From positions 1,550,001 to 1,614,000 of the forward strand of contig NZ_CP093310.2 of the NCBI RefSeq assembly GCF_022631235.3: 64,000 nucleotides of DNA, read 5' to 3'. The notes below the pieces were generated by a model that worked only from the letters and a program-made list of their open reading frames with translations, ran no database searches and was not told the origin of the DNA. Shown here piece by piece: positions 1,988 to 29,526 of the stretch. Within the stretch, counting starts at the first letter, position 1. Every line of letters starts with the position of its first letter. Source of the DNA: Psychrobacter raelei (GTDB taxonomy: Bacteria; Pseudomonadota; Gammaproteobacteria; Pseudomonadales; Moraxellaceae). The translations under genes were made by a program, and so were the position numbers.

Positions 1988-2016
1988 AACCCTAGTCAAT
2001 AATAAATGATAGGGTT
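1988..2016 (-). terminator. Hairpin with T-run immediately before tube gene
   Basis: On the minus strand AACCCTA pairs with TAGGGTT around a 15-base loop, followed by a run of T and then ATG. It has intrinsic-terminator form for transcripts arriving from the baseplate genes. It also encloses the AGGG that would serve as ribosome site for the tube gene. Confidence 0.6.
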
Positions 2017-2056
2017 ATTTTGGCATTGGAGAGGTAGTATGGTTTAGGGGTGTTCC
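2010..2056 (-). promoter_or_regulatory. Late promoter, GGAACAC family (tail tube)
   Basis: On the minus strand GGAACACCCC (2047-2056) is followed 24 bp later by the -10-like CAAAAT (2017-2022). No TTGACA-like -35 is present at 17 bp, which suggests that the box binds an activator. It is one of eight similar sites, all in front of late genes. The predicted start of transcription lies in the 5' arm of the hairpin at 1988-2016. Confidence 0.6.
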
Positions 2057-2058
2057 AC

Positions 2059-2694
2059 CTAAAAAGGCGATAGATAAGCCACATGATAGCGATAGCCACC
2101 AACCGCGACAGCAGCATCAACCTGGCTGAAATCAACAGAGACAGCAATTTCAGGTACGATATTCCAGGGAACCAGCTTTTCTAAGACGGGGGCAATGTCA
2201 GAAATATCGCTATTGTTGTCATCAAGGGTTAATGCAATACGCACACGGCTAGTCAAAAAAGAACCTGGCATTTGTTTTTCACTTACCGCCATTGGATAAG
2301 AGCTTGCCAGCTCTTTTGAATGCCAAAGCCTGAGCACCCTGTTATTACCTGGGAACAACATGTCTAAGACAAACTGCAAAAAAGCCAAGCCACGGCCACT
2401 GGCCATAGCCTGCCAGCTAGATAGAATTGTAGACATGATATCAGTTGATAACCCATCTGCGTCTTGTCTCAAGATCACTAGGCCGTTAAGCTTACTGAAT
2501 CGCTCAATAACAACTGGGCTGCTTTCTAGCCATGGGGTGCCATAGCTATTCATATCAACCAAGCTTTCAAGCTCGTATTCTTCAATCAGCTTAGTAAAGA
2601 CACCTGCAATGGCCTCATCAAGCTCGTTTGCCTTGTGGCTTTCTTGCACCGTTCTAGTAAAGTCGGTAGCTTGTAAGTTGCTTATTTTACCCAT
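2059..2694 (-). CDS. Baseplate protein, gpI-like position
   Basis: The 211-aa frame begins 1 bp after the J-like gene, the same order as J-I in P2-type phages. A central helical segment (SSWQAMASGRGLAFLQFVL, about 91-109) is followed by beta strands, compatible with a baseplate wedge component. No diagnostic motif was seen, so the gpI call is positional. The gene ends just before a late promoter, so it probably closes the W-J-I transcription unit. Confidence 0.5.
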   Translation of the reverse strand: MGKISNLQATDFTRTVQESHKANELDEAIAGVFTKLIEEYELESLVDMNSYGTPWLESSPVVIERFSKLNGLVILRQDADGLSTDIMSTILSSWQAMASGRGLAFLQFVLDMLFPGNNRVLRLWHSKELASSYPMAVSEKQMPGSFLTSRVRIALTLDDNNSDISDIAPVLEKLVPWNIVPEIAVSVDFSQVDAAVAVGGYRYHVAYLSPF

Positions 2695-2695
2695 T

Positions 2696-4168
2696 CTACA
2701 AAGTCCAAATAGCTGTACCAGTATCGGCCGTTCTTGTCATATTGATAGTAATACTATCTTCTGTGATATAAGCCCATTCATGCGGTTTAATAGGGTTTTC
2801 AGCGGTATCTTCTGTTAAGACTGAAAAGTCGCTAATACGGTCTTGGAAGGCTGTAATATCACTTCTGATCTTAATGGCAATTTCTTGCTTATTAAAACCG
2901 TCTGGATTGTGGTAGCTTGATGATAGCGAGCCTTTACCAAAGTTTTCTAGCAGCAACTCTTTGATTTGAGTCTTTACTGAATCCATATCATGCACCGTTG
3001 CTAAGCGGCCAGCAATGGTGATTTGATAGGGTCTTTCTACAACCTCTTTGATATTAACCTTTCCATCCAATAGCGAGTCAGCATTAGCTACCAGCTTTTT
3101 AATATCCTCTACCAGCGCCTTTTGCTCAATCTTGTTTTTAGCTACCACGGTTAAAAATAGATGGTTGATTGCGTCCAATGAGGCCCCGTAGTGCTTCTCA
3201 TTGATCGTCTCGTTCCAAATGGCCATGTAATCAAACCGCTGCATAAAGTGCTTGCGTACTAAAAAATCAAAGTTACCCATGAAAACGGCGTTATGGTCAT
3301 ACATTGACGGGTAGCTGGCAAGTAGTCGCATTTGAGCCACGCTTAACGGATCTGCGCCGGCTCGAACAAGATCACCGGCTTTGAAATATAGGTTTAACTT
3401 GCTTTCCTCTGACTCGTAAATCTCACTCAAGGCCGCGCTGCTTAGGCTTGATTGGTCAACATACCCATAGCTTTGAGTGATTGCGATCTCGTAGGTATCA
3501 CCGGCTTGTACTGTCACGCCGGCACGTTCGGAGTCGCCAAAAACAATGGTTATATCCTCAAGGTTATGGCTTTGTAGTGTATAAGCCGCCTGGCCCAAAC
3601 CGGCGTTCATAAACTTGGGCGTGTACTGAAAACTCATACCCAAAGTTGCGTTATAAACTGACAAACTCGATAGATAGGCGCCGTCGGTTGTTGATACGTC
3701 TAGGCGATAAAAAGACTCACTAACAGGTATATTAACCTCAATATGATTAACAGTGCTTTGCTCTGCTAGAACCTTTTTGGTTTCATGGCCGTTTAAAGTT
3801 GCGGACGACATAAGCCGCCATTGTCTGCCCGTACCGTCCTCAACTAAACGGCCCTGGCTCAAACTAACCTTGCTATTCCCATTGTTCTCAATAGTTAGCA
3901 TGTGCTGGCAAGGTGTAGCAACTGGCAATATGCCCTTGTTAATGGCATCTGCAATGATTGTGCTTTGCTTGGATTTAATAAACGGCTCTGTAATATTTAC
4001 CGCGTTATCACGTGATAGCCATAATACAGTCTCCACGATAGAGGTCATCATGGCCCTTACCGTGGGATCGCCAGCTCGCCAGCGCTCTGCAACTTCTGGG
4101 TAGTCGTTTAAATGACTATCTATACTTGATAGTATCTTTTTCCTTAATTGGTTACTGGGCACTGACAT
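2696..4168 (-). CDS. Baseplate wedge protein, J/gp6-like
   Basis: The 490-aa protein lies directly downstream of the gp25/W-like gene, overlapping it by 17 bp. It has the build of J-like wedge proteins: an N-terminal helical part with repeated Asp/Arg-rich turns, a long middle beta domain, and a C-terminal alpha/beta domain (residues about 370-490) with the pattern VNIKEVVERPYQITIAGRLA. It would join the tail tube hub to the fibre-bearing periphery. Length is somewhat above P2 J (about 300 aa) and nearer to T4 gp6-type proteins. Confidence 0.6.
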   Translation of the reverse strand: MSVPSNQLRKKILSSIDSHLNDYPEVAERWRAGDPTVRAMMTSIVETVLWLSRDNAVNITEPFIKSKQSTIIADAINKGILPVATPCQHMLTIENNGNSKVSLSQGRLVEDGTGRQWRLMSSATLNGHETKKVLAEQSTVNHIEVNIPVSESFYRLDVSTTDGAYLSSLSVYNATLGMSFQYTPKFMNAGLGQAAYTLQSHNLEDITIVFGDSERAGVTVQAGDTYEIAITQSYGYVDQSSLSSAALSEIYESEESKLNLYFKAGDLVRAGADPLSVAQMRLLASYPSMYDHNAVFMGNFDFLVRKHFMQRFDYMAIWNETINEKHYGASLDAINHLFLTVVAKNKIEQKALVEDIKKLVANADSLLDGKVNIKEVVERPYQITIAGRLATVHDMDSVKTQIKELLLENFGKGSLSSSYHNPDGFNKQEIAIKIRSDITAFQDRISDFSVLTEDTAENPIKPHEWAYITEDSITINMTRTADTGTAIWTL

Positions 4169-4481
4169 TGTAGTAATCCTGGTCGATATCGGTTATTGGG
4201 TTATCGTTTAATTGAATATCAATATTGCCAATAGATAAGACAACATTAATCCTATCAAAGCCTACTGTCTCAACAGATATGCTCAATTGTTCTTCATCCA
4301 ACGTATCTATTATCGGTATATCGCGCCTTAGTTTTCTCAAAAAGTCATCTGCCGTATCAGCTGACAACTCTTTTAATAACATGGCCTTAGCATCGGCGCC
4401 GTAACCTTGAGCAAAGTAACCGTTAGGCGGCGTGTCCAACCAATGAATAATCATCTGCCTAATGTGTTCGGCGGTAATCAT
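4152..4481 (-). CDS. Baseplate protein gp25/W-like
   Basis: The 109-aa product is the usual size for the gp25/W family of sheath-initiating baseplate proteins. The line GYGADAKAMLLKELS, followed by RRDIPIIDTL and a beta C-terminus ending in short polar strands, resembles that family. It starts 4 bp inside the membrane-protein gene upstream and overlaps the J-like gene downstream. This tight packing supports a single wedge operon. Confidence 0.6.
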   Translation of the reverse strand: MITAEHIRQMIIHWLDTPPNGYFAQGYGADAKAMLLKELSADTADDFLRKLRRDIPIIDTLDEEQLSISVETVGFDRINVVLSIGNIDIQLNDNPITDIDQDYYNVSAQ

Positions 4482-4918
4482 TTAATTCGCACCTCGGATA
4501 ATGGGGTATTGGGGTCTGGCAGTCTTATCTTGGATCTTGTCTTTTTGGCCTGGGTTATAAGCTTAGACGCATCAACAAATCTTGAGTTCTTGATGCAAAC
4601 TAACAGCATGTCAAGCCATACAAAAAACGATCCTAGAATGGCCATAATAACAAGCAAGCCAGCACCACCAATCCCCCATGACTGCGATATAACCATGACA
4701 GCATAAAAACGCCATAATAAGAACATAAGCAATATTAAAAGCGGCACGCTCAACAATAGGGATTGACGCAAGGTTTGACCGATAGCCACGGCCAATGTAT
4801 TGCTGTCAATAACCTTGTTGAGTAGCTTTAACCTGCTAAGGATATCTACATACAAGTAAAACATCATAATCATTAACATACCGCTTAAAAAAAAGTCCAC
4901 TATATAGGCGTTCTGCAT
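4478..4918 (-). CDS. Small phage membrane protein, three helices
   Basis: The 146-aa protein shows three hydrophobic segments at about residues 10-28, 53-75 and 80-105, separated by basic turns, so it should sit in the inner membrane. It lies between a coiled-coil late gene and the gp25-like gene. A role in lysis (holin-like) is possible because no other holin was found. However, the size, three helices and place among tail genes are also compatible with another late membrane function. Confidence 0.6.
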   Translation of the reverse strand: MQNAYIVDFFLSGMLMIMMFYLYVDILSRLKLLNKVIDSNTLAVAIGQTLRQSLLLSVPLLILLMFLLWRFYAVMVISQSWGIGGAGLLVIMAILGSFFVWLDMLLVCIKNSRFVDASKLITQAKKTRSKIRLPDPNTPLSEVRIK

Positions 4919-4927
4919 ACCATTACC

Positions 4928-5467
4928 TTATGCTGCGTTTTGCTGTTTTACTTTCTCTAATTGAGCCTCAAGATCTTGTTTTTCTTTGGTTTTAACGGCA
5001 ATTACTTTATCTAGTTCCACCGACTCTTCTAGCAGTGATTTTAACGTTTGCGCTTTGTTGGCTGGCGCTCTATTACGCTTAGTTCTTGTTACCTGGGCGC
5101 GAGCTCGTCGGGCACTAAATGCCTTTTGGCCCTGGTTAATAAGTTTTGCGATCTCGTCAACCGATGCGTTGAATGACGGCTTATAAGAGTTATCAAAGTC
5201 GCCGGTAGTCGGCTGTGTTTTGCTGTTAATATCAATACGGAAAATATCCAGCCCATCCGGCTGATCTGATTCAGGGGCTTCACGAATATAAAGCTTTACA
5301 ACCTGGCCGCCGTCTAAAGCGATGTGAATAGGCCTGGCACTAGCACCAGATACCCTCGATACTCTTAAAACATCAACAACAACAACTTGCTGCCTAGCTG
5401 TTTTAGCTAAGCGCTTAACAAAGTCACTGACAAGCGATGTTTTTTCTGTGATTTCTGACAGTTTCAT
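4928..5467 (-). CDS. Unknown late protein with coiled-coil C-terminus (179 aa)
   Basis: I start this gene at the ATG at 5467 (MKLSEITEKT). A longer frame from 5485 would begin inside the leader hairpin. The first two thirds are alpha/beta with Arg/Lys-rich patches. The last 40 residues (LLEESVELDKVIAVKTKEK onward) form a clear charged coiled coil. It is the first gene after a GGAACAC promoter and leads the run into the membrane protein and baseplate genes. The function is not recognised. Confidence 0.65.
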   Translation of the reverse strand: MKLSEITEKTSLVSDFVKRLAKTARQQVVVVDVLRVSRVSGASARPIHIALDGGQVVKLYIREAPESDQPDGLDIFRIDINSKTQPTTGDFDNSYKPSFNASVDEIAKLINQGQKAFSARRARAQVTRTKRNRAPANKAQTLKSLLEESVELDKVIAVKTKEKQDLEAQLEKVKQQNAA

Positions 5468-5470
5468 AAA

Positions 5471-5505
5471 AATAACCCCAAACAAATTAATTGATTGGGG
5501 TTATT
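5471..5505 (-). terminator. Leader hairpin with T-run
   Basis: AATAACCCCAA pairs with TTGGGGTTATT on the minus strand, followed by T residues and then the ATG at 5467. Its upstream arm overlaps the -10 of the late promoter. The GGGG ribosome-site candidate is within the stem. Confidence 0.6.
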
Positions 5506-5542
5506 ATCGCTTGCTGTTAGCTCTGATTAGCTGGGGTGTTCC
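5503..5542 (-). promoter_or_regulatory. Late promoter, GGAACAC family
   Basis: GGAACACCCC at 5533-5542 (minus strand) is followed after 24 bp by GATAAT at 5503-5508, five of six bases of the -10 consensus. No -35 hexamer stands at normal spacing. It precedes the gene starting at 5467. Confidence 0.65.
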
Positions 5543-5548
5543 AACAAA

Positions 5549-6445
5549 TTACATGCCAACACTGCGGCGGTAGTGGCTTGCTTTTAGCCCGCGACGCATA
5601 TTGCGTGCTTTTTGTGGATCAATGTTATAGATATTGCGCTGTAAGCCTTTAGCAAATGACATCATACGCTTACGAACCGCTGAACCCGTGGTTGATTTTC
5701 TGCGAGCTTTTTTAAGGGCTGCTTTTTGAGCTGCACTTAAACGAACCTTGCCTCTAATACGCTTGTTAACAACCTTGATTTTACCATCACGTACCGCTTT
5801 GACAGCTCGGTATGAAATAGTCTTTCCATTAACTTTGCGAGTGGTCTTCTTACCAGGGCGTAAAGGTTTTCGGGCTGCGTCATACATGCCTTCATCTTCT
5901 TCTTTCATCATTGCGTCATAAGTGGCTTCGTCACCGTATGCAAAGATTGAGATAAAGTCGTCTAGCTCGTCATCGGCTGGCATGTTCTCTAAGATAACTT
6001 CTGAGGCTGTTTCGATTGCCGCATCTGCAATATCAATATCGCTATCAAAAACATCGTTAATCAGGTCCTCATCAACGCCCAAAGTGCTCATGGCGTCTGC
6101 AATATGAGCTGACAAGACGGTTTTGACAGTTGGGTCAATCTCGTCGTCGTCATCTTCTGGGTCCTCAACAAACACTTCAAGGATTAGGCTGTCAAGAAGT
6201 TCGCTTGGTAGTAATTCCTGATCCTCAAAGTCAACCTCTGACATGATGCCTGCCAGCATAAACGCTACTTGCAGTGCTGCTAAACGCATTTGAGTGGTTG
6301 AGTGTGCGGCAATACGTTCATCAATTGGGTCAAAATCAATAGATTCTGCCGCTTGTTTGGCGCTGTTAGTTGCGTCAAATTGCGCCTCTTGACGTTCTAA
6401 CATGCGATCCTGGTTACGCTCGATAATATGGCTTGATACTAACAT
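5549..6445 (-). CDS. Unknown late protein with acidic and basic halves (298 aa)
   Basis: The gene follows the sheath gene by 34 bp, so it probably shares its transcript. The first 200 residues are helical and strongly acidic, including a run of Asp/Glu near residue 98. The last 100 are strongly basic and Lys/Arg-rich (KKARRKSTTG, RNMRRGLKASHYRR). Such a split charge can suit a chaperone or nucleic-acid-contacting virion protein. I do not recognise the family. Confidence 0.7.
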   Translation of the reverse strand: MLVSSHIIERNQDRMLERQEAQFDATNSAKQAAESIDFDPIDERIAAHSTTQMRLAALQVAFMLAGIMSEVDFEDQELLPSELLDSLILEVFVEDPEDDDDEIDPTVKTVLSAHIADAMSTLGVDEDLINDVFDSDIDIADAAIETASEVILENMPADDELDDFISIFAYGDEATYDAMMKEEDEGMYDAARKPLRPGKKTTRKVNGKTISYRAVKAVRDGKIKVVNKRIRGKVRLSAAQKAALKKARRKSTTGSAVRKRMMSFAKGLQRNIYNIDPQKARNMRRGLKASHYRRSVGM

Positions 6446-6479
6446 TATTTATCTTCCTTTTACTGATCAATAAACTGCA

Positions 6480-7853: not shown

Positions 7854-7858
7854 AAAAA

Positions 7859-7884
7859 ATGCCTATATTGGTGAATATAGGCAT
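7859..7884 (-). terminator. Terminator-like hairpin before sheath gene
   Basis: ATGCCTATATT and AATATAGGCAT form an 11-bp perfect stem with a 4-base loop, followed by six T and then the ATG of the sheath gene. It begins directly after the -10 of the late promoter, so promoter and terminator share the same bases. Confidence 0.75.
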
Positions 7885-7924
7885 AGTATAGAGTTGGGCT
7901 AACAGTATTGTTTAGGGGTGTTCC
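7885..7924 (-). promoter_or_regulatory. Late promoter, GGAACAC family (sheath)
   Basis: GGAACACCCC at 7915-7924 is followed after 24 bp by TATACT at 7885-7890 (minus strand), the best -10 match of the family. The box touches the stop codon of the DUF285 fibre gene. Confidence 0.7.
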
Positions 7925-9180
7925 TATGCTTGATCCTCACCGCGCGGGCAGGTACCCCATACGGGTCTTGGTAGGGTCCAGCTGGTTGCATTGATATCAA
8001 ACCATCCGGGTGCTGTTGTTATAAGAGGTACGCACCATTCAGATAGGTCCTGATTAAATGAAGTAGCACTACCAAACATATTATTCATATTAGTGACTTT
8101 ACTAGTGTCCCATGAAGATAGGTCTTGGTCGAATGAACTAGCTCCACTAAACATATTACTCATATTAGTAACATTACTAGTATCCCAGTGAGATATATCC
8201 TGATTAAATGAACTAGCTCCACTAAACATATTACTCATACCAGTAACATTACTAGTGTCCCAGTGAGATATATCCTGATTAAATGAACTAGCTCCACTAA
8301 ACATAGTACCCATATTAGTAACATTACTAGTGTCCCATGTGGATATATCACCATTAAATAAAGTAGCGGCACTAAACATATTATTCATACTAGCAACATT
8401 ACTAGTATCCCAGTGAGATATATCCTGATTAAATGAACTAGCTCCACTAAACATATTACTCATATTAGTAACATTACTAGTGTCCCATGTGGATATATCA
8501 CCATTAAATAAAGTAGCGGCACTAAACATATTACTCATACCAGTAACATTACTAGTGTCCCATGTAGTTAAGTCTTGGTTAAATGAGGTAGCCTTATAAA
8601 ACATAGTACCCATATTAGTAACATTACTAGTGTCCCATGAAGATAGGTCTTGGTCGAATGAACTAGCTCCACTAAACATATTACTCATATTAGTAACATT
8701 ACTAGTATCCCAGTGAGATATATCCTGATTAAATGAACTAGCTCCACTAAACATATTACTCATACCAGTAATGTGGGAAGTAGCTGCACGTTCTGCATAC
8801 AATCTAGCATCTTTTCTAGTGTAAACCGAAACATACTCTTTAGGATCGCCTTCAAACTTATAGGTTTCACCCTCCGGTACGCCTTTATTATAAACAATGC
8901 CTGTGTCAGTGGCTTTATACCAGCCAGTGCCAGGATAGTCTTTGGCTAGGCCAGACTCTCTATGTATCTTTTCAAGTCTAGCTACTCGTGATTCTGCTTC
9001 TGCAATATTTGAAATACCCTCTGTTTTTTCAGACAGCTTGGTTAAGTCGCTACCAATCACTAATGAGCGATCCAGCAATTCCTCTAATGACCCCCCAAGG
9101 CCTTTGATTTTTGAAACTAACGACACGCTAACTTCGTCTATAAACTTAATAAATTCATCATGTGATGCTAACTTCTTCAT
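7924..9180 (-). CDS. BspA/DUF285-type repeat tail fibre protein
   Basis: After a coiled-coil N-terminus (about 75 residues) and a short linker domain come ten near-identical 25-residue repeats of the [23 protein letters not shown] type (DUF285, BspA-like). A cap with one Cys on each side follows. DUF285 repeats occur in surface and adhesion proteins, so a receptor-binding role on the virion is likely. I start at the ATG at 9180, with AGGTGAG 4 nt upstream; a GTG at 9189 is also possible. The N-terminal segment is related to that of the 85-87-aa protein upstream (MKKLxxHxxxxxFID). Confidence 0.75.
8017..8766 (-). repeat. Ten tandem 75-bp repeats encoding DUF285 units
   Basis: Units of 75 bp encode 25 residues each and are so alike at DNA level that several differ by only a few bases (two classes, ...[14 protein letters not shown] and ...[13 protein letters not shown], alternate). 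The array is likely to change length by recombination. Confidence 0.85.
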
Positions 9181-9215
9181 ACTACTCACCTATGTTGATT
9201 GATGTGGCTAAAAAA

Positions 9216-9241
9216 ATGCCCATATTCTTAGATATGGGCAT
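9216..9241 (-). terminator. Intrinsic terminator after small coiled-coil gene
   Basis: ATGCCCATAT and ATATGGGCAT pair around a short loop, followed by seven T on the minus strand. Unlike the sheath and tube leaders, a separate ribosome site (GGTGAG) follows before the fibre start. Confidence 0.75.
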
Positions 9242-9280
9242 AGTATAAAGTCAGACAATGGTTTTGGTTGCACGTGTTCC
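9242..9280 (-). promoter_or_regulatory. Late promoter, GGAACAC family (DUF285 fibre)
   Basis: GGAACACGTG at 9271-9280 with TATACT at 9242-9247, 23 bp apart on the minus strand. The box overlaps the end of the small coiled-coil gene. Confidence 0.65.
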
Positions 9281-9534: not shown

Positions 9535-9543
9535 ATTATCCAC

Positions 9544-12306
9544 CTATGCTTGGCCTTCTGTAATTCCATCGCTAATTGCTTGCTCTAAAGCCTCTGCAAA
9601 TCGCTCTGCATAGCCATCACCTAGAACAATATCTTCTTCTGCTAAAGCGGCAATATTGGTGCGTGCCTGCTTCTGCTGCTCCACTGTGAAAGACTGGGCT
9701 TGTGTGGCATTAACAAGGCCGTTATCGGCTTGTGCCAGTGCCGTGATTTTATCGGCCAATTCTTTCAAGGTGTCAGAATCCGCATCAGCGCCGTTGATCA
9801 AATCAGTAATAGCCTGCGTTAACTCATCTTTGGTGGCGTATGGTGCTACTAGGCCAGGCAATGATGAAACAAGGGCATATTCCTCGCCTTCTGGGGCTTT
9901 ATCAGCTTTAATAGCAATCTGCTCATTGATAGCGGTTTCAGCGGCTTCACGGGCCGTTTTTTCAGCTTCAATCGCTTCTTGCAACTGCTCGCCAGCCTTC
10001 GCTAGTTCGCCTCGGATAGCCTCGTCTGCTGCATCTGCCGCTTGCTTTAAGGTTTGGTCAGCTTTGATAAACTCACTGCGAATAACAGCACTTTCAACCT
10101 TTCTAGCTTCTTCCTCTGTGCTAATAGCTTCTTGAAGTTGCTGGCTAGACTGGGTAAGCTCGCTGCGAATAGCTGCGTCTTTCGCCTCAATGTCGTCTTT
10201 TAAGCTTTGGTCTGCTAAAGCAAGTTCGCTGCGAATAGCTGTGTTTTCAGACTTACGCTCGGCCTGCTCTTTGTCAATAGCTGCTTGTAGATCAACGCCT
10301 TTATTCTGAATAGAATCAGCTAGTTCCGTTTTGGCTTGTGCAAGCTCTGTACGATCAGCTTTAGTGCTATTGATTGTTGTTACTGACTGCTCAAAAACCG
10401 CTTGAGCTACTGCGTCGATATTTTTACGCGCAATTTGCTTGTTGGTTTCTTTAAACTCTTGAGCACTGGTAGCACTAACTAGGCCTTTATCAGCTTGTGC
10501 CAGGGCTGTGATCTTATCGGCCAGCTCTTTTAACGTATCAGAATCAGCATCGGCACCGTTGATTAAGTCGGTGATCGCTTTGGTTAGCTCGTTCTTAGTG
10601 GCAAACTCACTGCGAATGGCCGCATCTTCCGACTTACGGGCTGCACTTTCTGCATCAATAGTGCTTTGTATTAACTGATTAATGCCTGCCAGCTCGCCAC
10701 GAATAGCCGTATCTTCTGCTTTACGTGCGTTCTCTTCTGAAGCAACCTTTGCCTTTAGGCTTTGGTCGATAAGTGACAATTCACCACGGATCGCTTCATC
10801 TTCTGCTTTACGAGCACCTTCTTCTGCTAAAACAGCTGCTTGCACCTGGCTATCAGCTTTGTTGAAGTCATTGCGAATAGAAGAATCTCTTGCGTTGATC
10901 GTATCAATCAGACTATCTTTTAGCTTTTGGTCTGCTTGGGCAAACTCGCTACGAATAGCAGTATCTTCAACCTTACGAACCACCGATTCTGCATCAATAC
11001 CGCTTTGTAGTACCTCAATATAATTGGTAACTTCACTGCGTAAAGAGATTTCTTTGGTGTTGATCATAGCTGTCAAAGCTTCTTTGTTCATGTCGTCTGC
11101 ATGAGCAAATGCTGTGCGAATTGCTGCACTGTCTGCTTTGCGATTAGCTACCTCATCATCAATAGATGATCTAAGCTGGGTACTCTTAGTATTAATAGAG
11201 TCTCTTAGCTCTGTTTTGGCTAAGCTAAGCTCTTCACGGGTTGCTTTAACCTTATCAATTTCAGCTACCTCTTTTTCAAACGTGGCTTTAGCTACTGCAT
11301 CAATGTTATTGCGTGCAATCTCTTTGTTAGCCGCTTTGAATGATTGGGTTTCGGTAGCACTCACCAATCCCTTATCAGCTTGAGCCAGGGCAGTAATTTT
11401 GTCCGCAAGTTCTTTTAAAGAGTCTGAATCGGCGTCTGCACCGTTAATTAAATCGGTGATCGCCTGGGTTAATTCAGCCTTAGTTGCGTACTTGTTACGG
11501 ATATCGGTATCTTGTGCTTTACGGGTTGCCGCTTCTGAATCAATCGCTTTTTGTAGCTCTTGATCAGCTAAGGCAAACTCATTACGGATCGCCGTATCTT
11601 CTGCTAAGCGTTCAGCTGCTTCATCTTCAATGGCTTTTTGGGCCTGCTGGCTAGATTCAGCAAGTTCACCGCGAATGGCTATATCTTCAGCCTTACGCGC
11701 TTCTGATTCTTCTTTAGCTTCTTGTTTTAGGGTTTGAGTAGCTTGGGATAATTCACCACGAATAGCCGTATCTGCTGCTTCAAATGCACTTTTAAGCGTT
11801 TTATCGGCAGCTGCAAACTCACCGCGAATGGCTTTATCTTCGGCCTTACGAGAAGTCTCTTCTGCACTGATAGCCGTTTGTAGTTGAGTCTTGGTTGCCT
11901 GGATTGAGCCTGATAACTCTGTTTCAACCTGGTTAAGTTCAGTACGTGATGCCTTATCGCTATTAATAGCACTAACTTGTTGAGCAAAGTTTTCATCAGC
12001 TTCAAATAAGTCTGCTATCTTATCTGCAAGCTCTTTTAAAGTATCATCATCTTCATCAGCACCATTGATAAGATCAGTGATAGCTTGTTGTAGCTCTACC
12101 TTGCTGGCAAGCTTAGCAGCCTCTTCTTTGGTGGCATAAATCTCGCCAGCCTCAACAGTTGCTTTTTTAACCTCGTTAATGGCAGCAACAACGCTCTTTT
12201 TGTCGCCAGTTTCAAGCTTGCTAACACTACCAATATCTTTACCGATACGGGCTGCAAGCTCTCTTACGTCTGTGTCCTTGGTAAGAACAACACCTTTAAT
12301 ACTCAT
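9544..12306 (-). CDS. Long coiled-coil tail fibre protein (920 aa)
   Basis: The protein is built from repeats of about 28 residues of the type ARKAEDTAIRGELAxAxQxLxxAI, giving an elongated helical rod. Four copies of the module AITDLINGADADSDTLKELA (near 12.0, 11.4, 10.5 and 9.8 kb) interrupt the rod. This motif is typical of phage tail-fibre shafts, as is the SATxxQxFxxxxxxxARxNI segment after three of them. It probably forms a trimeric fibre. No intramolecular chaperone or lectin-like tip is visible at the C-terminus, so the tip may be carried by other proteins of the locus. Confidence 0.75.
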   Translation of the reverse strand: MSIKGVVLTKDTDVRELAARIGKDIGSVSKLETGDKKSVVAAINEVKKATVEAGEIYATKEEAAKLASKVELQQAITDLINGADEDDDTLKELADKIADLFEADENFAQQVSAINSDKASRTELNQVETELSGSIQATKTQLQTAISAEETSRKAEDKAIRGEFAAADKTLKSAFEAADTAIRGELSQATQTLKQEAKEESEARKAEDIAIRGELAESSQQAQKAIEDEAAERLAEDTAIRNEFALADQELQKAIDSEAATRKAQDTDIRNKYATKAELTQAITDLINGADADSDSLKELADKITALAQADKGLVSATETQSFKAANKEIARNNIDAVAKATFEKEVAEIDKVKATREELSLAKTELRDSINTKSTQLRSSIDDEVANRKADSAAIRTAFAHADDMNKEALTAMINTKEISLRSEVTNYIEVLQSGIDAESVVRKVEDTAIRSEFAQADQKLKDSLIDTINARDSSIRNDFNKADSQVQAAVLAEEGARKAEDEAIRGELSLIDQSLKAKVASEENARKAEDTAIRGELAGINQLIQSTIDAESAARKSEDAAIRSEFATKNELTKAITDLINGADADSDTLKELADKITALAQADKGLVSATSAQEFKETNKQIARKNIDAVAQAVFEQSVTTINSTKADRTELAQAKTELADSIQNKGVDLQAAIDKEQAERKSENTAIRSELALADQSLKDDIEAKDAAIRSELTQSSQQLQEAISTEEEARKVESAVIRSEFIKADQTLKQAADAADEAIRGELAKAGEQLQEAIEAEKTAREAAETAINEQIAIKADKAPEGEEYALVSSLPGLVAPYATKDELTQAITDLINGADADSDTLKELADKITALAQADNGLVNATQAQSFTVEQQKQARTNIAALAEEDIVLGDGYAERFAEALEQAISDGITEGQA

Positions 12307-12308
12307 AG

Positions 12309-12452: not shown

Positions 12453-12462
12453 AAATTAACTC

Positions 12463-12855: not shown

Positions 12856-12864
12856 ATTTCCGCC

Positions 12865-18206: not shown

Positions 18207-18215
18207 AAGAATATT

Positions 18216-18253
18216 CCTATCGTCATTGAAAAAAATTGAACATATCCGATAGG
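18216..18253 (-). promoter_or_regulatory. Leader stem-loop of capsid mRNA
   Basis: CCTATCG and CGATAGG (7 bp) flank a loop of 24 bases containing a run of T. The 3' arm ends 9 nt before the ATG and contains the AGG that could act as ribosome site. It could stabilise the mRNA end or control translation. Confidence 0.5.
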
Positions 18254-18256
18254 GTT

Positions 18257-18296
18257 ATATTAAGACTCGCCTAGACACCCTTTTTAGGGGTGTTCC
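18257..18296 (-). promoter_or_regulatory. Late promoter, GGAACAC family (capsid)
   Basis: GGAACACCCC at 18287-18296 is followed 24 bp later by TAATAT at 18257-18262 (minus strand). Within the leader a CCTATCG...CGATAGG hairpin (18216-18253) lies just ahead of the ribosome site and ATG at 18206. Confidence 0.7.
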
Positions 18297-18302
18297 AATA
18301 GC

Positions 18303-18327: not shown

Positions 18328-18402
18328 AATGGGTGTTGCTGGCAGGCTTACATCAAGAAGGTTAAAAAAAACACCAGTACAAGGTTGAATGTGTCTAAAA
18401 CC

Positions 18403-20459: not shown

Positions 20460-20461
20460 GG

Positions 20462-21829
20462 TTAAGCTGTCCGTAACCAGTAAGCCACAACGATTGAAGG
20501 CTGCACGTTATTGTGCGGCTTATCTTTCCACCCTGTTTCCGATGTGGGTAAAGGGATCATCTTGCCTTGGCTACCACTCGCGTAACCTGTACCACCCCCG
20601 CCGTGCCTACGTGCCCCGTGATAACCTGCTTCCCTAACTTTAAGCGCTGTTGAGGGCATCTCTTCTGCTACAAGCTTATGCTCATAAGCACCAAATGATG
20701 ATTTAAGCGTCTTGGTCCATGCCGGATCAGCTGCTTTGGTTGACATACCAACAAGCGTCTTACCTTCTGCGAACCTAGCCCATGTGCCATAACCCAAAGC
20801 TGTATTAACTTCTGCGCTGCTCTTGTAATCATTGGTCGTCACATACACAGAACCAATTGGCATTTCAGTAACCTTGCCTTGAGCTGCTGTTAGCTGCTTC
20901 TGCAATTCCTCAATCTGTTTCTTCATGCCAGCCAGGTCTTTATCTTGCAAATACTGAGGATGCGGGTCGGTTGAGTCGGCATGGGTAGATAAGTCTGTTT
21001 TCTTAGCGTATTGAGGGTGCGGATCAGCTGCACTTGTATGAGCTGATAAGTCTGTTTTCTTGGCATACTGCGCATGCGGATCAGCTGCTTTCACATGGCT
21101 ATCAAGATCAGTAGATACTTTGTTGATATCCTTGCCATGCTGAGCGATTGTGCCAGCATTTGTGTCCACTAGCTTTTTAAGCGCATCGTATTGCTTAACG
21201 TGTGCATCATGCTCTGTTTTAAGTGTGTACTGCGGGTGTGGGTTTGGCGCCTTTAGGTGTTCCGCCAGGTTGTTAGATGCACTATTGATATTCTCGCCAA
21301 GCTTATCCACCTTTTTATCAAGCTGGGCCAGCTTATCAGCCTTAACGTATTGAGGGTGGGGGTCTGGTGCTGCTAAGTGATCTTCAATCATCTTAATAAC
21401 AATAGCGCTATCAGGATCGGTAGTGACTGTGATATTACTAACATCCAGGTCACTTAAAGACATGCCAAAACTACCAACAAATGTAACGTTTGCATAAACG
21501 GTAAATAATGGCTCGGTACTGGCGGCAATTGCAAAAAGCTTATTATCGCTGGTTAGCAATCCAACTTCGTAGATATCCCTTGACATGACGCTATTCAAAG
21601 TAACACTGAATCGTAAAGATTTGCTCTCCTTCTCAATACCGCTTGTTACGATATCGGATCGCATAGCTTCTGCCTTGATACGCGTCTCTCTGCCGTTTGG
21701 TACGTATTTTGACGTGCCAGCAACAAACGTCTTTAAAGACAAGCTTATACCTTGCTTTTGAGCGTCTAACACCGCTAAACGCCCTTCATCGGTTATCTTA
21801 AATATAATTGGGTTTGGTTTATTCGCCAT
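20462..21829 (-). CDS. Collar-type tail fibre protein (455 aa)
   Basis: The N-terminal 130 residues resemble the tail-collar-fibre attachment domain (ITDEGRLAVLDAQKQG ... DIYEVGLL). The shaft carries five copies of an H-x(4-6)-DPHPQY motif that is frequent in phage fibre shafts. The C-terminus (MPIGSVYVTTNDY ... NVQPSIVVAYWLRTA) matches receptor-binding tips of collar/gp12-like short fibres. The gene follows the terminase gene and has its own GGAACAC promoter. A His/Gly-rich stretch before the tip may bind metal. Confidence 0.75.
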   Translation of the reverse strand: MANKPNPIIFKITDEGRLAVLDAQKQGISLSLKTFVAGTSKYVPNGRETRIKAEAMRSDIVTSGIEKESKSLRFSVTLNSVMSRDIYEVGLLTSDNKLFAIAASTEPLFTVYANVTFVGSFGMSLSDLDVSNITVTTDPDSAIVIKMIEDHLAAPDPHPQYVKADKLAQLDKKVDKLGENINSASNNLAEHLKAPNPHPQYTLKTEHDAHVKQYDALKKLVDTNAGTIAQHGKDINKVSTDLDSHVKAADPHAQYAKKTDLSAHTSAADPHPQYAKKTDLSTHADSTDPHPQYLQDKDLAGMKKQIEELQKQLTAAQGKVTEMPIGSVYVTTNDYKSSAEVNTALGYGTWARFAEGKTLVGMSTKAADPAWTKTLKSSFGAYEHKLVAEEMPSTALKVREAGYHGARRHGGGGTGYASGSQGKMIPLPTSETGWKDKPHNNVQPSIVVAYWLRTA

Positions 21830-21864
21830 GGTTTACGCAATCCTTAAAGTTTTGGTATTGCATA

Positions 21865-21903
21865 AGTTTAACTACCTGGGCTGGCAGGTGTGCCATGTGT
21901 TCC
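21865..21903 (-). promoter_or_regulatory. Late promoter, GGAACAC family (collar fibre)
   Basis: GGAACACATG at 21894-21903 is followed after 23 bp by TAAACT at 21865-21870 on the minus strand. The leader to the ATG at 21829 contains AAGGA as ribosome site. No terminator hairpin overlaps this copy. Confidence 0.55.
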
Positions 21904-21913
21904 ATTTGCAAGC

Positions 21914-23935: not shown

Positions 23936-23957
23936 TTTTAGCCCTTAATACTAAATA

Positions 23958-24482: not shown

Positions 24483-25485
24483 CGTCGGTAGGTCCTTTTT
24501 TATCCACCTTAGTTTCAGTGATCACACCCGTATCAGGGTCAATAGCAACTCTGAATTCATGGTCTGTATCTTCATCATCAATACTGGCTTCAATAACCAG
24601 GCTGTTAAGCTTGTCGTAATCATCGCGACTGCCTTCAACTGGTTTAACGCCTGGAACCGGCACTCTTGGGCTGTTAATGGCCGGCCCGTCTGGGTTATTA
24701 GGGTCAAGCGGTATGGTTGGCTTCTCTGGGTCATATTCAGGGTTAGGCCGTGTTGGCAAGCTCTCGTATGGCTCACCCATATCGGTTACATCATCCCATT
24801 CGCCGCCCAAGCCAACAAACTCAGGGATAGCACCAACAATCGTACAATCAACAGTGGCAATAAACAGGTTTTTAAGGTCAGTTGTTGCACTATCAGGGTA
24901 AAGACTATTTTCTAATACCCTAAAATTCCAATCATCTTTAATTGGCTTACCCTCAAGAACCCCAACATCATAAGACACTGGGAATGTTCTTTTTTCCTCA
25001 TGCCTCCAAAAGTTTGCAAACTGCCTGGCAATATCTGACGCACTGTGGGGATCTGGGCTAAAAAAAGCTATCTGACAACGATAAGCTACGGGCACCGATC
25101 GCATTTGTACGACTCGCTTTAGTGGGTCTTGAGGTAGAACCACGTTTACCCAATACGGTAGGCCGCCAACCTGATCATACTCAGGTGGCGTTTCAATCGG
25201 GCTAATAGCCGTCATAAGCACTGGCAAATAAACGGACGAACCAGACTCTTTTTTATAACCTGCGTTCTTTGCGTTATCAGTCTCTTGTATTGCTTTTAGC
25301 ATGCCTTCCACATCATCAACCATAGAAGTCCTGGCCACAACAATAGCCGCTTCTAGCCTGCGTCGCTTCCAGTCGTAAACGCCTTGAGTTGTTGGCATGC
25401 ACCATTGCCTAAAATCCCTTAACTTCATGGCCCAAGCTATCTGCAAATACTCAAGCGGTGATAGCAGTCGTTTAGTTTTGCTCAT
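24475..25485 (-). CDS. Unknown neck/tail-completion-type protein (336 aa)
   Basis: Located between the protease/scaffold and the 174-aa gene. The first 240 residues are alpha/beta with a central motif NVVLPQDPLKRVVQMRSVPV. From about 245 a Pro/Asp/Asn-rich low-complexity linker (RPNPEYDPEKPTIPLDPNNP) leads to an acidic C-terminus. A structural role at the neck or tail end fits gene order. Not recognised. Confidence 0.6.
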   Translation of the reverse strand: MSKTKRLLSPLEYLQIAWAMKLRDFRQWCMPTTQGVYDWKRRRLEAAIVVARTSMVDDVEGMLKAIQETDNAKNAGYKKESGSSVYLPVLMTAISPIETPPEYDQVGGLPYWVNVVLPQDPLKRVVQMRSVPVAYRCQIAFFSPDPHSASDIARQFANFWRHEEKRTFPVSYDVGVLEGKPIKDDWNFRVLENSLYPDSATTDLKNLFIATVDCTIVGAIPEFVGLGGEWDDVTDMGEPYESLPTRPNPEYDPEKPTIPLDPNNPDGPAINSPRVPVPGVKPVEGSRDDYDKLNSLVIEASIDDEDTDHEFRVAIDPDTGVITETKVDKKGPTDDE

Positions 25486-25499
25486 TGTTTAATCCCTAT

Positions 25500-26432
25500 T
25501 TAAAGGCCACGAAATCTATCGACAATGCTAATGCGCTCTTGTGGTGCTTCTGACCTGCCAGCCACCTTTTCTAGCTCACTTATGCGTAAATCTGCGTCTG
25601 ACGTGCTACCAATATGAAAGCTATCCCATTGGGCCTTAATCTCGTTAAACGGCTTAGAAGGGCAAATTAGGCTATCAAAAAGCTCTAATTCTCGCTGCTT
25701 CTTGCGCTCTAATACTTTTTGACGACGTAATTCTGCATTGATCAAAGCGTCTTGGGCTGCCAGTGCTTCACGCTGATAATGGCTTACCAGTGACTCTGAA
25801 TGTAAAGCTGTTTGCATTGAGTCATATTGAGCAATGATGATGCGTTCTAAAGCCTCTTTTAAGACAATCTGGTCTTGTGGCAGCTCTACCAGGCTATCAA
25901 AGCACGCCTCACCTTCGGTATAAGCGCCATTCAAGATGCTATCAAACATGCCGTCGCCTTTATTTGTGGCATAGTTTGGTGTTCTCACATAGTCAAAGCC
26001 ATGAAAGCCGGTAACTTCATAATAACCGTCTGGCTTGCGTCTGCGATTAATAGCGCTGCTAAAGCCGCCGGCCTTGTTAGCGTATAAACGCGCGGCAAAT
26101 TGGCCGTCGTCCGTATCTAAGAACTCATGCTGGGTTACGACGTTGCCGTCATCGTCAGCTTCAAGCCTGATGGTGCGTAAGGCTGGCTGGATTTTAATAA
26201 TACGGCCCGTCTTTTCATCCACCCATTGGTCTGGTGGGTACATGCCAAAGCGTGCTCTTATCTCATGGCCGTTAAAGCCAAATAAATCACCACTGCTGAC
26301 AAGCTCTTGAACCTCTGGTGAATTAATCTTTTTAACCATTGAGCTGATATCTAAGTCTGATCTATCCTGGCCATTGTATTTACGGCCACGATCCGCCAGG
26401 TTGTATGTAATAACTTTCGTTTTCTTAGCCAT
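25500..26432 (-). CDS. Probable prohead protease fused to scaffold domain (310 aa)
   Basis: Residues 45-125 have the outline of an assemblin-type prohead protease. There is a His-containing strand (FNGHEIRARFG), then the paired line IQPALRTIRLEADDDGNVVT followed by HEFLDTDDGQFAARLYANKA, and a glycine-Ser turn GGFSSAI where the nucleophile would sit. Residues about 195-260 form a long charged coiled coil, as in scaffolding proteins. Protease-scaffold fusions are known in phages. The gene precedes the terminase and has its own late promoter. Identification is by pattern only. Confidence 0.5.
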   Translation of the reverse strand: MAKKTKVITYNLADRGRKYNGQDRSDLDISSMVKKINSPEVQELVSSGDLFGFNGHEIRARFGMYPPDQWVDEKTGRIIKIQPALRTIRLEADDDGNVVTQHEFLDTDDGQFAARLYANKAGGFSSAINRRRKPDGYYEVTGFHGFDYVRTPNYATNKGDGMFDSILNGAYTEGEACFDSLVELPQDQIVLKEALERIIIAQYDSMQTALHSESLVSHYQREALAAQDALINAELRRQKVLERKKQRELELFDSLICPSKPFNEIKAQWDSFHIGSTSDADLRISELEKVAGRSEAPQERISIVDRFRGL

Positions 26433-26436
26433 GAAA

Positions 26437-26490
26437 AACCCCTCAAAAAAGGCATAGAATATTTAATAATATGCCTTAGTTTAAGGGGTT
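26437..26490 (-). terminator. Nested hairpin before protease/scaffold gene
   Basis: An outer stem AACCCCT/AGGGGTT encloses an inner stem AAGGCATA/TATGCCTT, with T-runs after both and ATG 5 nt past the end. GAGGGG in the outer stem is the only ribosome-site candidate. Confidence 0.6.
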
Positions 26491-26516
26491 AAGCGCTTTT
26501 GCCTTTGGGGTGTTCC
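26478..26516 (-). promoter_or_regulatory. Late promoter, GGAACAC family (protease/scaffold)
   Basis: GGAACACCCC at 26507-26516 and TAAACT at 26478-26483, 23 bp apart (minus strand). The -10 lies within the nested hairpin leader. Confidence 0.6.
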
Positions 26517-26525
26517 TTTAGACTC

Positions 26526-29453
26526 TTAGTCCCAAGCCATACTCATACTCATACCCATGCCACCAGTAATTGCATGTGCTAAATCCCTGTCTGACACATT
26601 CTGACCGATGCTTTCATTGTTAGCTTGAACAATAATCGGCTTATCCTGGCTGCCACCTGCCAGCGGCAATCTAAATGAGGGCATATCAGGTATGTTAAGC
26701 ACGTTTTTAAGGATCGACGCACCCAAATCGAGGCCTAACGATTGGCTGGCTGGCAAGTAACTTGTATTGGCGGTTGGCATAAAGTTTGATGCACCAGCAC
26801 CGCTTGGAACCTTCCCACCACCCATGTAAGCAGGCACAGACTCTCTATATTGAGCCTCTATTCTACTTGCAATAGCAGCACGATCACGTTTTTCAGCTTC
26901 GGTATTTTGGGGTCGCTCATAGTATTGAGAAAAATCCTTAGCTGCCTGCTCAGAAGTCTTGGCCTCTTTAAGCTTTTTACCAGCCTTCTTCTCTAATGGC
27001 CCACCGTTTTTTAATTCCCACTGAACAAACTTCAATTGCTCTTCAAAGGTAGATTGACGGATATCCTTACCAAACACGCGTTTAAAATCTTGTTGGCGTG
27101 GTGGGTGCCACTGTGCAATACCGTAGGCTTGGCCGCTATCGCCTAGTCTTTTTCCTGATATCACGTTTGGATCAAACCCGCCACTTTCTTTATGTAGGTT
27201 AGCAACAATACCGATCGCCTGCTGTTTGGTCCAACCCTGCCCCATAAAATAACTAATCGCCTTGTCTTGGTAGTTACTTGCACCGCCAATCGCAACACTC
27301 GACGGCGCTGCTGGTGCTTTCAACTGTCCTCTAAGCTCTTTGTAAGGGTCAACAACTGTCACCCCAAATTGTCGGCCGTTAAGGTTTTTAACGTACTCGC
27401 TAAGCTCTGTTTTTCTAACCCCTGTCTTACCGTCTGAGCCTTTGGATGATGTAGATTCAGACACGTATTTAACGCCGTTTTCCTCAACAATCTGCACGAT
27501 ATGGCCGATGTTTTTGTATCTGCCTTCTTTTCTTGCATGCTCCCCTCGTGACTCACCAATAACCATGCCAGCCTGCAACTTGTTGATATCTAGTTGAGCC
27601 CAACTGTTCGCCGTGGTCATGAGGCGCCCTTTCTTTTCTTCTGACTGGATAATGCCAGCTGCTCCACCGCTTGCGTCAATACGAGCGCGTTTAGCCGCCT
27701 CTGGCCCTAGCTGCTCTTCAATCTGTCTTACGGTATCTTTGTTTAATTGATCAACCCAGCCTGAACAATCAATAACACCGCCGCTGAAGTTTTTAGCGCC
27801 CATTTTATAAGTGACACCATCTTTGGCTGATGTTAGGCCCGAACCAAAATCAACCTTCCAGTCACCCATGCCACTATCACCACCAAAACCCAGCATGCTG
27901 CCCAAGCCACTAGCCATGTTTGACACCCATGACTTCATGCCGCCGGCTGCTTCACTTAGTTTAGAAAGGACCGGTGCTAATCCGGTCTCCCACTTAGATT
28001 GCATTTTTTGAGGTAAGTTGTAAGCCTTAACGCTATCAGTCCATGACTTGATATGAGGTGACGCTGTACGACCTAAAACCTCGCCGCCCTCGCTACCTAT
28101 CCACCCACCCACGGCCGCTCCAATAGCTGTACCCACTACTGGCACTGGTATTAGCACTGAGCCTACAGCGCCGCCAGCCATAGCACCAACACCGCCGCCA
28201 GCTACACTACCAATGCCCGCTGTTCTCTCTTCATCATCGAGATCATCCCAACGACTCGCCAGACTCCCCACGCCAATAGCTGTTGCCAGTGGTGTCAGCA
28301 CTCTAGCCTTGCCAAGCGCTTTAGCTGCCTTGCCAATATGCTTGCTGCCATTCTTGCCAGCACCTAATAAAGCAGCTCCAGCTCCAGATAATATAGCCTT
28401 AACGCCTTTACCTTTGCCCTTGCCCTTTCCGCCGCCACCGCCGCCCAGAATGCCTAAGCCACGCCCTAATTTACCCAGTAACGAACCGTCACCACTTGGC
28501 ATCCTTTTCAGAATCTCGCCTAGCGTTTCCTCGTTCTGCTTGTTATGTCTTTCCTGCTCCTTCGGCAACGGCTCTTTGCGCTTCAAACTCTTGTACTTTG
28601 AGAACGAGAACCTGCCTGCCCTTAACGCTGCCTTGCCAGCCATTCCGCCAATCTTGCCAGCTTGCATGGCCATACCGACCATGGGTGTTGCTACATCCTT
28701 GATCTCATTCATTGATGCAATTAGCGGGTCAATATCTTGAGCGCCACCATAACCGCCATAGCTACTACGGCCGCTATTAGCCACCTTGGCCAGCGAATCA
28801 AATAGCGATTTCTCCTTGGCTGTAAAGCGGCCCTTCTCGTCTCTATTTTTATCGCTATCTTTTTTGCTTTTCTCACGCCCATTCTTACCGGTAGGGTTGT
28901 TGGCCTTGCGAGCTGCACCAGGTATGCCACCAGCTGCGTTGTTAGTGGCGTCTAGCCGCCCCTCGGCCTTACCCTTACCACCTGTTGAACTATTAACGCC
29001 GCTTGAGCCGCTATCGCGCTGGCTATCAGCTCTATTTGCTGCTGAGCCTGATTTTACGGTAGCATTTGCAGTGACATTACTAAGAGTGTCGCCGCCCTTC
29101 CCGCCGGCTGACATTACCTCGCTTTTTTCTGGCTGACTCGTACTACTTAACCTCTGTCTATGTTGCTGCTTTGATTGTGCCTGGCTCTGCGTGCTCGGCT
29201 GGCTTATACCAGTCAATCTTGAATCATTGGGATCGTAAGTTGGCACCACGCCCTGAATACGCATAGACTTCTTGTTAGCTATACGCTCATTGGATTTAGC
29301 TATACGGTTTAATACCGTTTGGTTAATTTGATTTTGTGATTTGAGTATCTGTATGATCTCTTGAGTATCTTCACCGATTGACTTAATACCGCTTTCTAGC
29401 CGCTTTGTGCCAATAATGAAGCCCTGATCATCATAGTTAAGATAAGTTGCCAT
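26526..29453 (-). CDS. Virion protein with NlpC/P60-like and tail-lysozyme domains (975 aa)
   Basis: A low-complexity Gln/Ser/Gly-rich N-terminal third is followed by a glycine-rich hydrophobic region (about 320-480) with glycine-zipper spacing that could enter a membrane. Next comes a probable NlpC/P60-type domain with DCSGWVD (Cys near 560) and IGHIVQIV (His near 648). Then a phage tail lysozyme domain (about 728-890) with KESGGFDPNVISG and AYGIAQWHPPRQ. It would cut host peptidoglycan on infection and may also serve as tape measure. It is the first late gene after promoter 29488-29526. Confidence 0.75.
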   Translation of the reverse strand: MATYLNYDDQGFIIGTKRLESGIKSIGEDTQEIIQILKSQNQINQTVLNRIAKSNERIANKKSMRIQGVVPTYDPNDSRLTGISQPSTQSQAQSKQQHRQRLSSTSQPEKSEVMSAGGKGGDTLSNVTANATVKSGSAANRADSQRDSGSSGVNSSTGGKGKAEGRLDATNNAAGGIPGAARKANNPTGKNGREKSKKDSDKNRDEKGRFTAKEKSLFDSLAKVANSGRSSYGGYGGAQDIDPLIASMNEIKDVATPMVGMAMQAGKIGGMAGKAALRAGRFSFSKYKSLKRKEPLPKEQERHNKQNEETLGEILKRMPSGDGSLLGKLGRGLGILGGGGGGKGKGKGKGVKAILSGAGAALLGAGKNGSKHIGKAAKALGKARVLTPLATAIGVGSLASRWDDLDDEERTAGIGSVAGGGVGAMAGGAVGSVLIPVPVVGTAIGAAVGGWIGSEGGEVLGRTASPHIKSWTDSVKAYNLPQKMQSKWETGLAPVLSKLSEAAGGMKSWVSNMASGLGSMLGFGGDSGMGDWKVDFGSGLTSAKDGVTYKMGAKNFSGGVIDCSGWVDQLNKDTVRQIEEQLGPEAAKRARIDASGGAAGIIQSEEKKGRLMTTANSWAQLDINKLQAGMVIGESRGEHARKEGRYKNIGHIVQIVEENGVKYVSESTSSKGSDGKTGVRKTELSEYVKNLNGRQFGVTVVDPYKELRGQLKAPAAPSSVAIGGASNYQDKAISYFMGQGWTKQQAIGIVANLHKESGGFDPNVISGKRLGDSGQAYGIAQWHPPRQQDFKRVFGKDIRQSTFEEQLKFVQWELKNGGPLEKKAGKKLKEAKTSEQAAKDFSQYYERPQNTEAEKRDRAAIASRIEAQYRESVPAYMGGGKVPSGAGASNFMPTANTSYLPASQSLGLDLGASILKNVLNIPDMPSFRLPLAGGSQDKPIIVQANNESIGQNVSDRDLAHAITGGMGMSMSMAWD

Positions 29454-29487
29454 GATAAAGCCTTATAATACTGTACGTGTGGCTTAA

Positions 29488-29526
29488 ATTATGGCACTGC
29501 TGGCGGGTTGTAGCTTTGAGTGTTCC
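29488..29526 (-). promoter_or_regulatory. Late promoter, GGAACAC family (975-aa virion protein)
   Basis: GGAACACTCA at 29517-29526 with CATAAT at 29488-29493 after 23 bp on the minus strand. It lies just downstream of a terminator and is the rightmost member of the family. Confidence 0.65.

Follow-up and report, generated by a model that had tools for sequence, protein, structure and literature searches.

The 64,000-nucleotide stretch of Psychrobacter raelei DNA analysed here, referred to as the window (contig NZ_CP093310.2, positions 1,550,001 to 1,614,000), is part of a 3,165,292-base (3.17 Mb) genome and carries late genes of a prophage, before which the heptamer GGAACAC recurs together with a -10-like hexamer. 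We consider it fairly probable that these boxes constitute a real, conserved class of activator-dependent late promoters in the Psychrobacter prophage, for which an activator can be nominated, namely the XRE-type helix-turn-helix (HTH) protein P0001. Hairpins located between the -10 hexamer and the start codon, which are absent from the preliminary description of this DNA, are possibly of greater interest. The predicted fold of these leaders and its dependence on the 5' end of the RNA are, together with the box, its spacing and its conservation, results at the level of sequence.

GGAACAC occurs nine times in the window, exclusively on the minus strand. Eight copies are intergenic, and in each case a -10-like hexamer follows at a distance of exactly 33 or 34 bp from the first G; in agreement with the preliminary description, all eight boxes, all eight hexamers and the extension of the box to the 10-mer GGAACACCCC in five of the eight cases were recovered. 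The remaining copy (21257-21263) resides within an open reading frame (ORF; 20462-21829) and lacks a -10 at either distance. The promoters, with boxes all read from sequence and all on the minus strand, are promoter 1 (29481-29526; box 29526-29520, CATAAT 29493-29488, predicted +1 at 29481) before a gene for 975 amino acids (aa), promoter 2 (26471-26516; box 26516-26510, TAAACT 26483-26478, predicted +1 at 26471) before a 310-aa gene, promoter 3 (21858-21903; box 21903-21897, TAAACT 21870-21865, predicted +1 at 21858) before a 455-aa fibre-like gene and promoter 4 (18250-18296; box 18296-18290, TAATAT 18262-18257, predicted +1 at 18250) before a 602-aa capsid-like gene. Further along, promoter 5 (9235-9280; box 9280-9274, TATACT 9247-9242, predicted +1 at 9235) precedes ORF 7924-9189, promoter 6 (7878-7924; box 7924-7918, TATACT 7890-7885, predicted +1 at 7878) the sheath gene, promoter 7 (5496-5542; box 5542-5536, GATAAT 5508-5503, predicted +1 at 5496) a 179-aa gene and promoter 8 (2010-2056; box 2056-2050, CAAAAT 2022-2017, predicted +1 at 2010) the tail tube gene. 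A ninth promoter of the same build is found outside the window (G000:C1:1546655), ahead of a 1119-aa ORF. When the window is taken together with its flanks, GGAACAC is present 12 times in forward and never in reverse orientation, and nine of the 12 copies have a -10 at 33 or 34 bp (background 4.6%, P = 2e-10), the exceptions being the coding copy and two copies in the right flank.

The number of boxes by itself is unconvincing, because 6 of 100 shuffled sequences reach the nine copies of the window (shuffle mean 4.89, both strands). If up to two mismatches are allowed, there are 23 copies of the 10-mer GGAACACCCC where 25.3 are expected, hence no enrichment, and the signal is thus confined to exact boxes. 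Box counts were consequently dropped as a sole argument, being weak for exact boxes and empty at two mismatches. Across all 3,165,292 bases there are six copies of the 10-mer, five in the window and one about 3.3 kb past its left edge, all on one strand, and a backwards control pattern likewise yields six; what is unusual about GGAACACCCC in this genome is its placement, not its number.

The pairing of box and hexamer that the preliminary description had claimed recurs in related prophages. Ten stretches from nine of them, unused when the rule was stated, contain GGAACAC 53 times in forward and three times in reverse orientation, and 51 of the 53 forward copies have a -10 at 33 or 34 bp (background 4.5%). 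Three of these 51 sites (G010 58755, G067 57653 and G004b 19057) share a near-identical context with no start codon downstream and probably represent one homologous coding stretch. In G046, which is nearly identical to the window, the hexamer accompanies eight of eight boxes. Among 105 Psychrobacter genomes, 53 copies of GGAACACCCC fall in the nine with a sheath gene and 52 in the remaining 96. As a separate observation, the held-out relatives feature a second, smaller excess of -10-like hexamers at box offsets 42-48, about 11 bases beyond the main one and near the hairpin arms.

With regard to more distant relatives, seven prophages of the Acinetobacter/Alkanindiges type contain GGAAC 253 times in forward and 89 times in reverse orientation, with 55 hexamers at offset 34 where about seven are expected. 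The box shortens to TTGGAAC in this group (67 forward vs. five reverse), with the hexamer at offset 34 in 31 cases and at offset 33 in seven. The Acinetobacter baumannii phage vB_AbaM_ABMM1 resembles the Psychrobacter prophage in possessing a related capsid, a related sheath, a P0001 homologue and an equal box distance, and differs from it in that its box consists of GGAAC followed mostly by T or C. An offset-34 hexamer accompanies 15 of its 65 forward GGAAC and one of the 34 reverse ones, several of these sites lying inside genes; the word "promoter" is absent from the main text of the paper on this phage. Xanthomonas phage Rb1 has weak capsid and sheath similarity, yet no P0001 match, and in the 50,000 of 91,478 bases covered for this single phage no offset peak appeared.

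A profile was derived from 61 sites, excluding G046 as too close to the window and including G295 6345 at offset 32. GGAACAC is preceded by T in 51% and followed by CCC in 72-82% of the sites, positions 11-13 counted from the start of the box are rich in A, and no other strong block precedes the TANAAT hexamer, after which an A is found at hexamer +6. Within the slot of a -35 element (box positions 10-15) only the A at 11-13 is favoured, and the statement of the preliminary description that a -35 hexamer is missing was essentially right. At hexamer +12, the usual +1, A reaches 77%, flanked by T at -1 (59%) and at +2 (69%); the A at the predicted +1 had no part in site selection. A conserved box, a fixed distance to the -10 and a poor -35 are thereby found together, as is characteristic of activator-dependent sigma-70 late promoters. 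Because of the fixed spacing, the strand bias, the conservation in distant relatives and the A at +1, the assignment of the boxes as promoters appears well supported. Sigma-54 and extracytoplasmic function (ECF) promoters were considered and rejected, as inspection of the same profile by eye revealed no conserved second element at their spacing. We found no description of a GGAACAC late-promoter box in the open PMC literature, a body of text that leaves subscription papers outside its coverage.

As judged from conservation and position, the most likely activator candidate is P0001 (37820-38509, minus strand), a protein of 229 aa assigned to phrog_7396 (function unknown), whose HTH_3 domain (25.1 bits, cut-off 23) places it in the XRE family. 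Among the early ORFs of at least 40 aa in the window, only P0001 and its neighbour P0002 (36954-37820, minus strand; 288 aa) have relatives in all five Psychrobacter early regions compared. The two genes directly precede the first late box in G010, G067 and G071; in the window, other genes occupying about 7.4 kb separate this box from P0002. A search with relatives of P0001 returned 27 loci, several of them on contigs of genomes already in the set and hence not independent, of which 21 have at least one box with a -10 downstream; altogether 50 boxes were located downstream and five upstream. Only boxes preceded by A or T entered this count, so that three boxes of locus L090 are missing from it. 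Loci L099, L104 and L109 comprise less than 4 kb of downstream sequence, and L107 has no box within 10 kb, though its record contains six copies of GGAACACCCC. Across 21 relatives, some with as little as 23% identity, residues N50 to E56 (NRISEIE) and G58 of P0001 do not vary, a parallel to the constant GGAAC core that is suggestive only. The structure predicted from the single sequence was too poor (predicted local distance difference test, pLDDT, 55.9) and was rejected, while a model based on 21 sequences (pLDDT 74.6) has a long helical C-terminal part. A fold search with P0001 gave no match at E 0.001 or better; the weak matches include CI-sigma region 4 (1rio) at E 0.24. Relatives of P0001 also occur on several Acinetobacter plasmid records of 62-83 kb, a phage-like size that suggests the existence of phage-plasmids in this family.

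Many of the leaders can form a hairpin with its 5' arm at or upstream of +1 and with the Shine-Dalgarno motif in its 3' arm, often as AGG or AGGG a few bases ahead of the ATG. In the window, such structures on the minus strand comprise the sheath-leader hairpin identified by the terminator scan (7859-7884; AGG in the 3' arm, then a T run and ATG), a hairpin over the -10 and +1 of promoter 7 (5471-5505; GGG in the 3' arm before ATG) and the tube-leader hairpin (1983-2021; AGGG in the 3' arm before ATG). Stems near the -10 and +1 reach a mean score of 19.7 as compared with 12.7 after shuffling, and 34 of the 61 sites exceed the 95th percentile. The best stem begins upstream of +1 in 55 of the 61 sites, a result favoured by the start of the scan at -18. 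By eye, the sheath leaders keep the 3' arm, while the 5' arm either covers the -10 or lies some 11 bases further on. Two-sided pair changes were found in ten cells vs. 3.8 in shuffled data, albeit in leaders hand-picked for alignability (14 of 37: all eight tube leaders, two of four and four of eight in two further groups, none of 12 sheath leaders plus five others) and with a structure named from the same leaders; for two of the five measures, 31 and 45 of 500 shuffles scored as high. A hairpin stabilizing the 5' leader was judged less likely, given that the 5' arm is situated largely upstream of +1.

The predicted unpaired probability of the Shine-Dalgarno motif was then compared between read-through RNA and RNA starting at the own promoter, after omission of three sites without start codon and two with the motif before +1 (56 sites, 55 of them used for shifts of the 5' end). 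Its median is 0.009 in read-through RNA, 0.46 in own-promoter RNA and 0.31 when the upstream 30 bases are shuffled, and the read-through value is the lower one in 46 of the 56 sites. In a matched control with identical motifs and frame for boxed and unboxed genes of the same phages, an unpaired probability below 0.02 in read-through RNA was obtained for 29 of 50 boxed vs. two of 173 unboxed genes (one of 71 with non-coding upstream sequence). With all Shine-Dalgarno motifs allowed, the sites are locked in 31 of 55 boxed vs. eight of 228 unboxed genes (six of 93 controls with non-coding upstream sequence). The Acinetobacter-type set gave 21 locked of 44 boxed genes vs. 11 of 119 controls, 20 of its 64 candidates having been dropped for this comparison and 24 for the 5'-end shifts. 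Five of nine promoters, i.e., those of the window plus the one outside, are fully locked, with unpaired probabilities in read-through and own-promoter RNA of 0.00 and 0.20 for promoter 2 (26516), 0.00 and 0.64 for promoter 6 (7924), 0.00 and 0.49 for promoter 7 (5542) and 0.00 and 0.60 for promoter 8 (2056), while promoters 3 (21903; 0.26 and 0.58) and 4 (18296; 0.25 and 0.37) are partly locked. A lock of the type known from T4 gene e, with the site paired in the longer RNA and freed in the promoter-proximal one, is thus found in silico for about half of the boxed genes.

The predicted release depends on the exact 5' end. Of 30 locked sites, the fraction that stays locked is 1.0 when the RNA begins at -16, 0.57 at -4 and 0.03 at both -2 and +1; in the Acinetobacter-type sites (20 locked of 40) it is 0.65 at -4 and 0.10 at -2. 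The predicted unlocking proceeds in two steps, one near -15, where the arm covers the -10, and the other between -4 and -2.

Several observations weigh against the combination of activator-dependent promoters with a lock on read-through RNA. Some sites lack the lock or run counter to it: ten of the 56, among them two of the window, show the reverse order of unpaired probabilities. Promoter 1 (29526) has a weak hairpin and an unlocked Shine-Dalgarno motif (0.50 in read-through and 0.15 in own-promoter RNA), and promoter 5 (9280) is not locked either (0.42 and 0.38) and is followed, just after its -10, by a terminator-like hairpin with a T run (9216-9241, minus strand; terminator scan). Own-promoter RNA pairs the motif about half the time and is far from fully open. 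Orthologous promoter sites share ancestry and are not independent, and P values are overstated to that extent. At locus L095, no box was present in the 9.7 kb downstream of the P0001 relative, which is 23% identical. Furthermore, the 61-site profile lacks, by eye, the dyad of a usual HTH dimer or class II activator site. Finally, at least five T are present among the eight bases past the 3' arm in 16 of the 61 sites, where the stems may serve termination in part or altogether. Under a rival explanation, the promoters are as described, whereas each hairpin acts as a plain intrinsic terminator for the preceding unit and abuts the next gene, the hiding of the ribosome-binding site being a by-product; in its favour, the terminator scan also calls both 9241-9216 and 7884-7859. 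By the same count, however, 45 of the 61 sites have no T run (in a few, T residues lie within the 3' arm), several such sites are fully locked, e.g., G067 44578 and G071 50759, and the sharp loss of pairing between -4 and -2 occurs in two separate clades, although a terminator has no need of it. We regard the terminator explanation as a tentative alternative, true in perhaps a minority of conceivable outcomes.

As for the regulator, P0002 or another phage protein could act in place of P0001. P0002 is conserved as widely as P0001 and adjacent to it, but no recognised DNA-binding domain was found for it in Pfam and its terminase small-subunit match is weak (E 0.004), whereas P0001 is an XRE-type HTH protein in which NRISEIE is as invariant in the 21 relatives as GGAAC is in the boxes; a role of P0002 or a third protein is unlikely. 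It is more improbable still that the box is used by a host factor or by RNA polymerase alone. The hexamers are fair -10 elements, some with TG just upstream (by eye), but GGAACACCCC is present in the host genome only within the prophage, and phage-negative Psychrobacter genomes contain 0.54 copies each. One of the known late systems, i.e., Ogr of P2, C/Mor of Mu or a phage sigma factor, would share the logic of one activator over several late promoters and is nonetheless very hard to reconcile with the gene content: Ogr_Delta has no match anywhere in the genome, the sole Mor domain match (C1:636418) lies outside the prophage, and so do both matches to sigma-70 region 4.2, with PF08281 as the only sigma model searched. 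The Mor-family gene (G000:C1:636418-636735) possibly belongs to a Mu-like prophage. Because the prophage has no match to Ogr/Delta, Mor/C or sigma-70 region 4.2 and is the only place of GGAACACCCC in its own genome, a dedicated phage-coded regulator for the box is plausible. The phage-coded late activator postulated in the preliminary description, for which no gene had been identified, thereby gains a candidate, whose binding and activation we infer.

According to the proposed mechanism, an early operon situated just before the late region would make P0001, which would bind GGAACAC(CCC) at about -46 to -36 and compensate for the lack of a good -35, and host sigma-70 RNA polymerase helped by P0001 would read the -10 and start at +1. 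Since the early operon and the late genes are on one strand, read-through would otherwise reach the virion genes. At many of these promoters, DNA at and just upstream of +1 would also encode the 5' arm of the hairpin, with the ribosome-binding site in the 3' arm, such that RNA entering from upstream would fold and hide this site; in some units, a T run resembling that of a terminator is present in addition. RNA from the late promoter would start inside the 5' arm, lose pairing bases and leave the ribosome-binding site more open, and the late gene would be well translated only once its own promoter is switched on. This explanation as a whole, comprising sigma-70 late promoters, a phage activator that is likely P0001 and a hairpin lock on read-through RNA, seems to us rather more credible than doubtful. 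Its stricter form is a gate with two keys, in which a new XRE-type activator opens the GGAAC promoters, the start site at many of them lies inside the anti-Shine-Dalgarno arm and only RNA begun within two to three bases of +1 is freely translated; for this form we judge the chances to be evenly balanced.

In phages P2 and P4, a single small activator (Ogr or Delta) serves several late promoters; the genome studied here differs in having no Ogr_Delta match, and the GGAACAC box differs from the P2 site. Lambda CI at PRM is an XRE-type HTH protein that contacts sigma at about -42 in class II activation, while P0001 falls into a different family (phrog_7396) and has a C-terminal part that is long and helical. 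Phage Mu likewise places an activator beside several late promoters without a good -35, the activator being a candidate in our case. The site bound by Mor of Mu is an inverted repeat of 16 bp with its centre at -43.5 (PMC4390567); the box described here has no such inverted repeat near this position by eye, and the prophage has no Mor-family gene. The direct precedent for the lock comes from T4, where, according to a review, a leader hairpin in the longer early RNA of gene e (lysozyme), soc, 49 and I-TevI hides the ribosome site, and transcripts begun at late promoters a short way upstream are missing the 5' portion of the hairpin and are translated (PMC3014915). T4 uses gp55 and TATAAATA, and a few genes are named in that review. 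The Psychrobacter system is distinguished from it by the temperate nature of the phage, a sigma-70-like -10 with an upstream box, a lock predicted for roughly half of the boxed late genes, and occurrence in two phage clades.

The region between P0002 and the first late box (29690-36957, minus strand) represents cargo, in which PADLOC gave matches to a type II restriction enzyme (29690-30577), to RmrA (34700-35812) and to RmrT (35832-36491). Among relatives, the first box follows P0001 at distances of about 0.8 to 10 kb, and the region therefore looks like an insertion hot spot. Its portion 30581-33515 (minus strand) contains an N-terminal piece of a DNA methyltransferase (33192-33515), then an element with a serine recombinase and a TnpB-like protein (31405-33170), and, beyond the latter, ORF 30581-31234 with a DPPY motif read by eye. 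Among the late genes, the 421-aa ORF (7924-9189) and the 920-aa ORF (9544-12306), both on the minus strand, are among the least conserved: tblastn against 18 relative stretches detected them in three and two, respectively, and sheath, capsid and tube in 16 or 17.

For the phage family, these findings may offer a promoter code that is readable across prophages of Psychrobacter, Moraxella, Alkanindiges and Acinetobacter, with an active A. baumannii phage among them, as well as a candidate late activator, P0001, for which we found no described relative. The box would permit annotation of late units in a poorly known phage group from sequence. The lock, previously described for a few T4 genes, is here predicted regulon-wide, and, if it is real, the choice of start site would couple the control of transcription with that of translation, a prediction with a precision of two or three bases. 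If the gate with two keys holds true, stray read-through from the prophage early operon or from the host would yield little virion protein.

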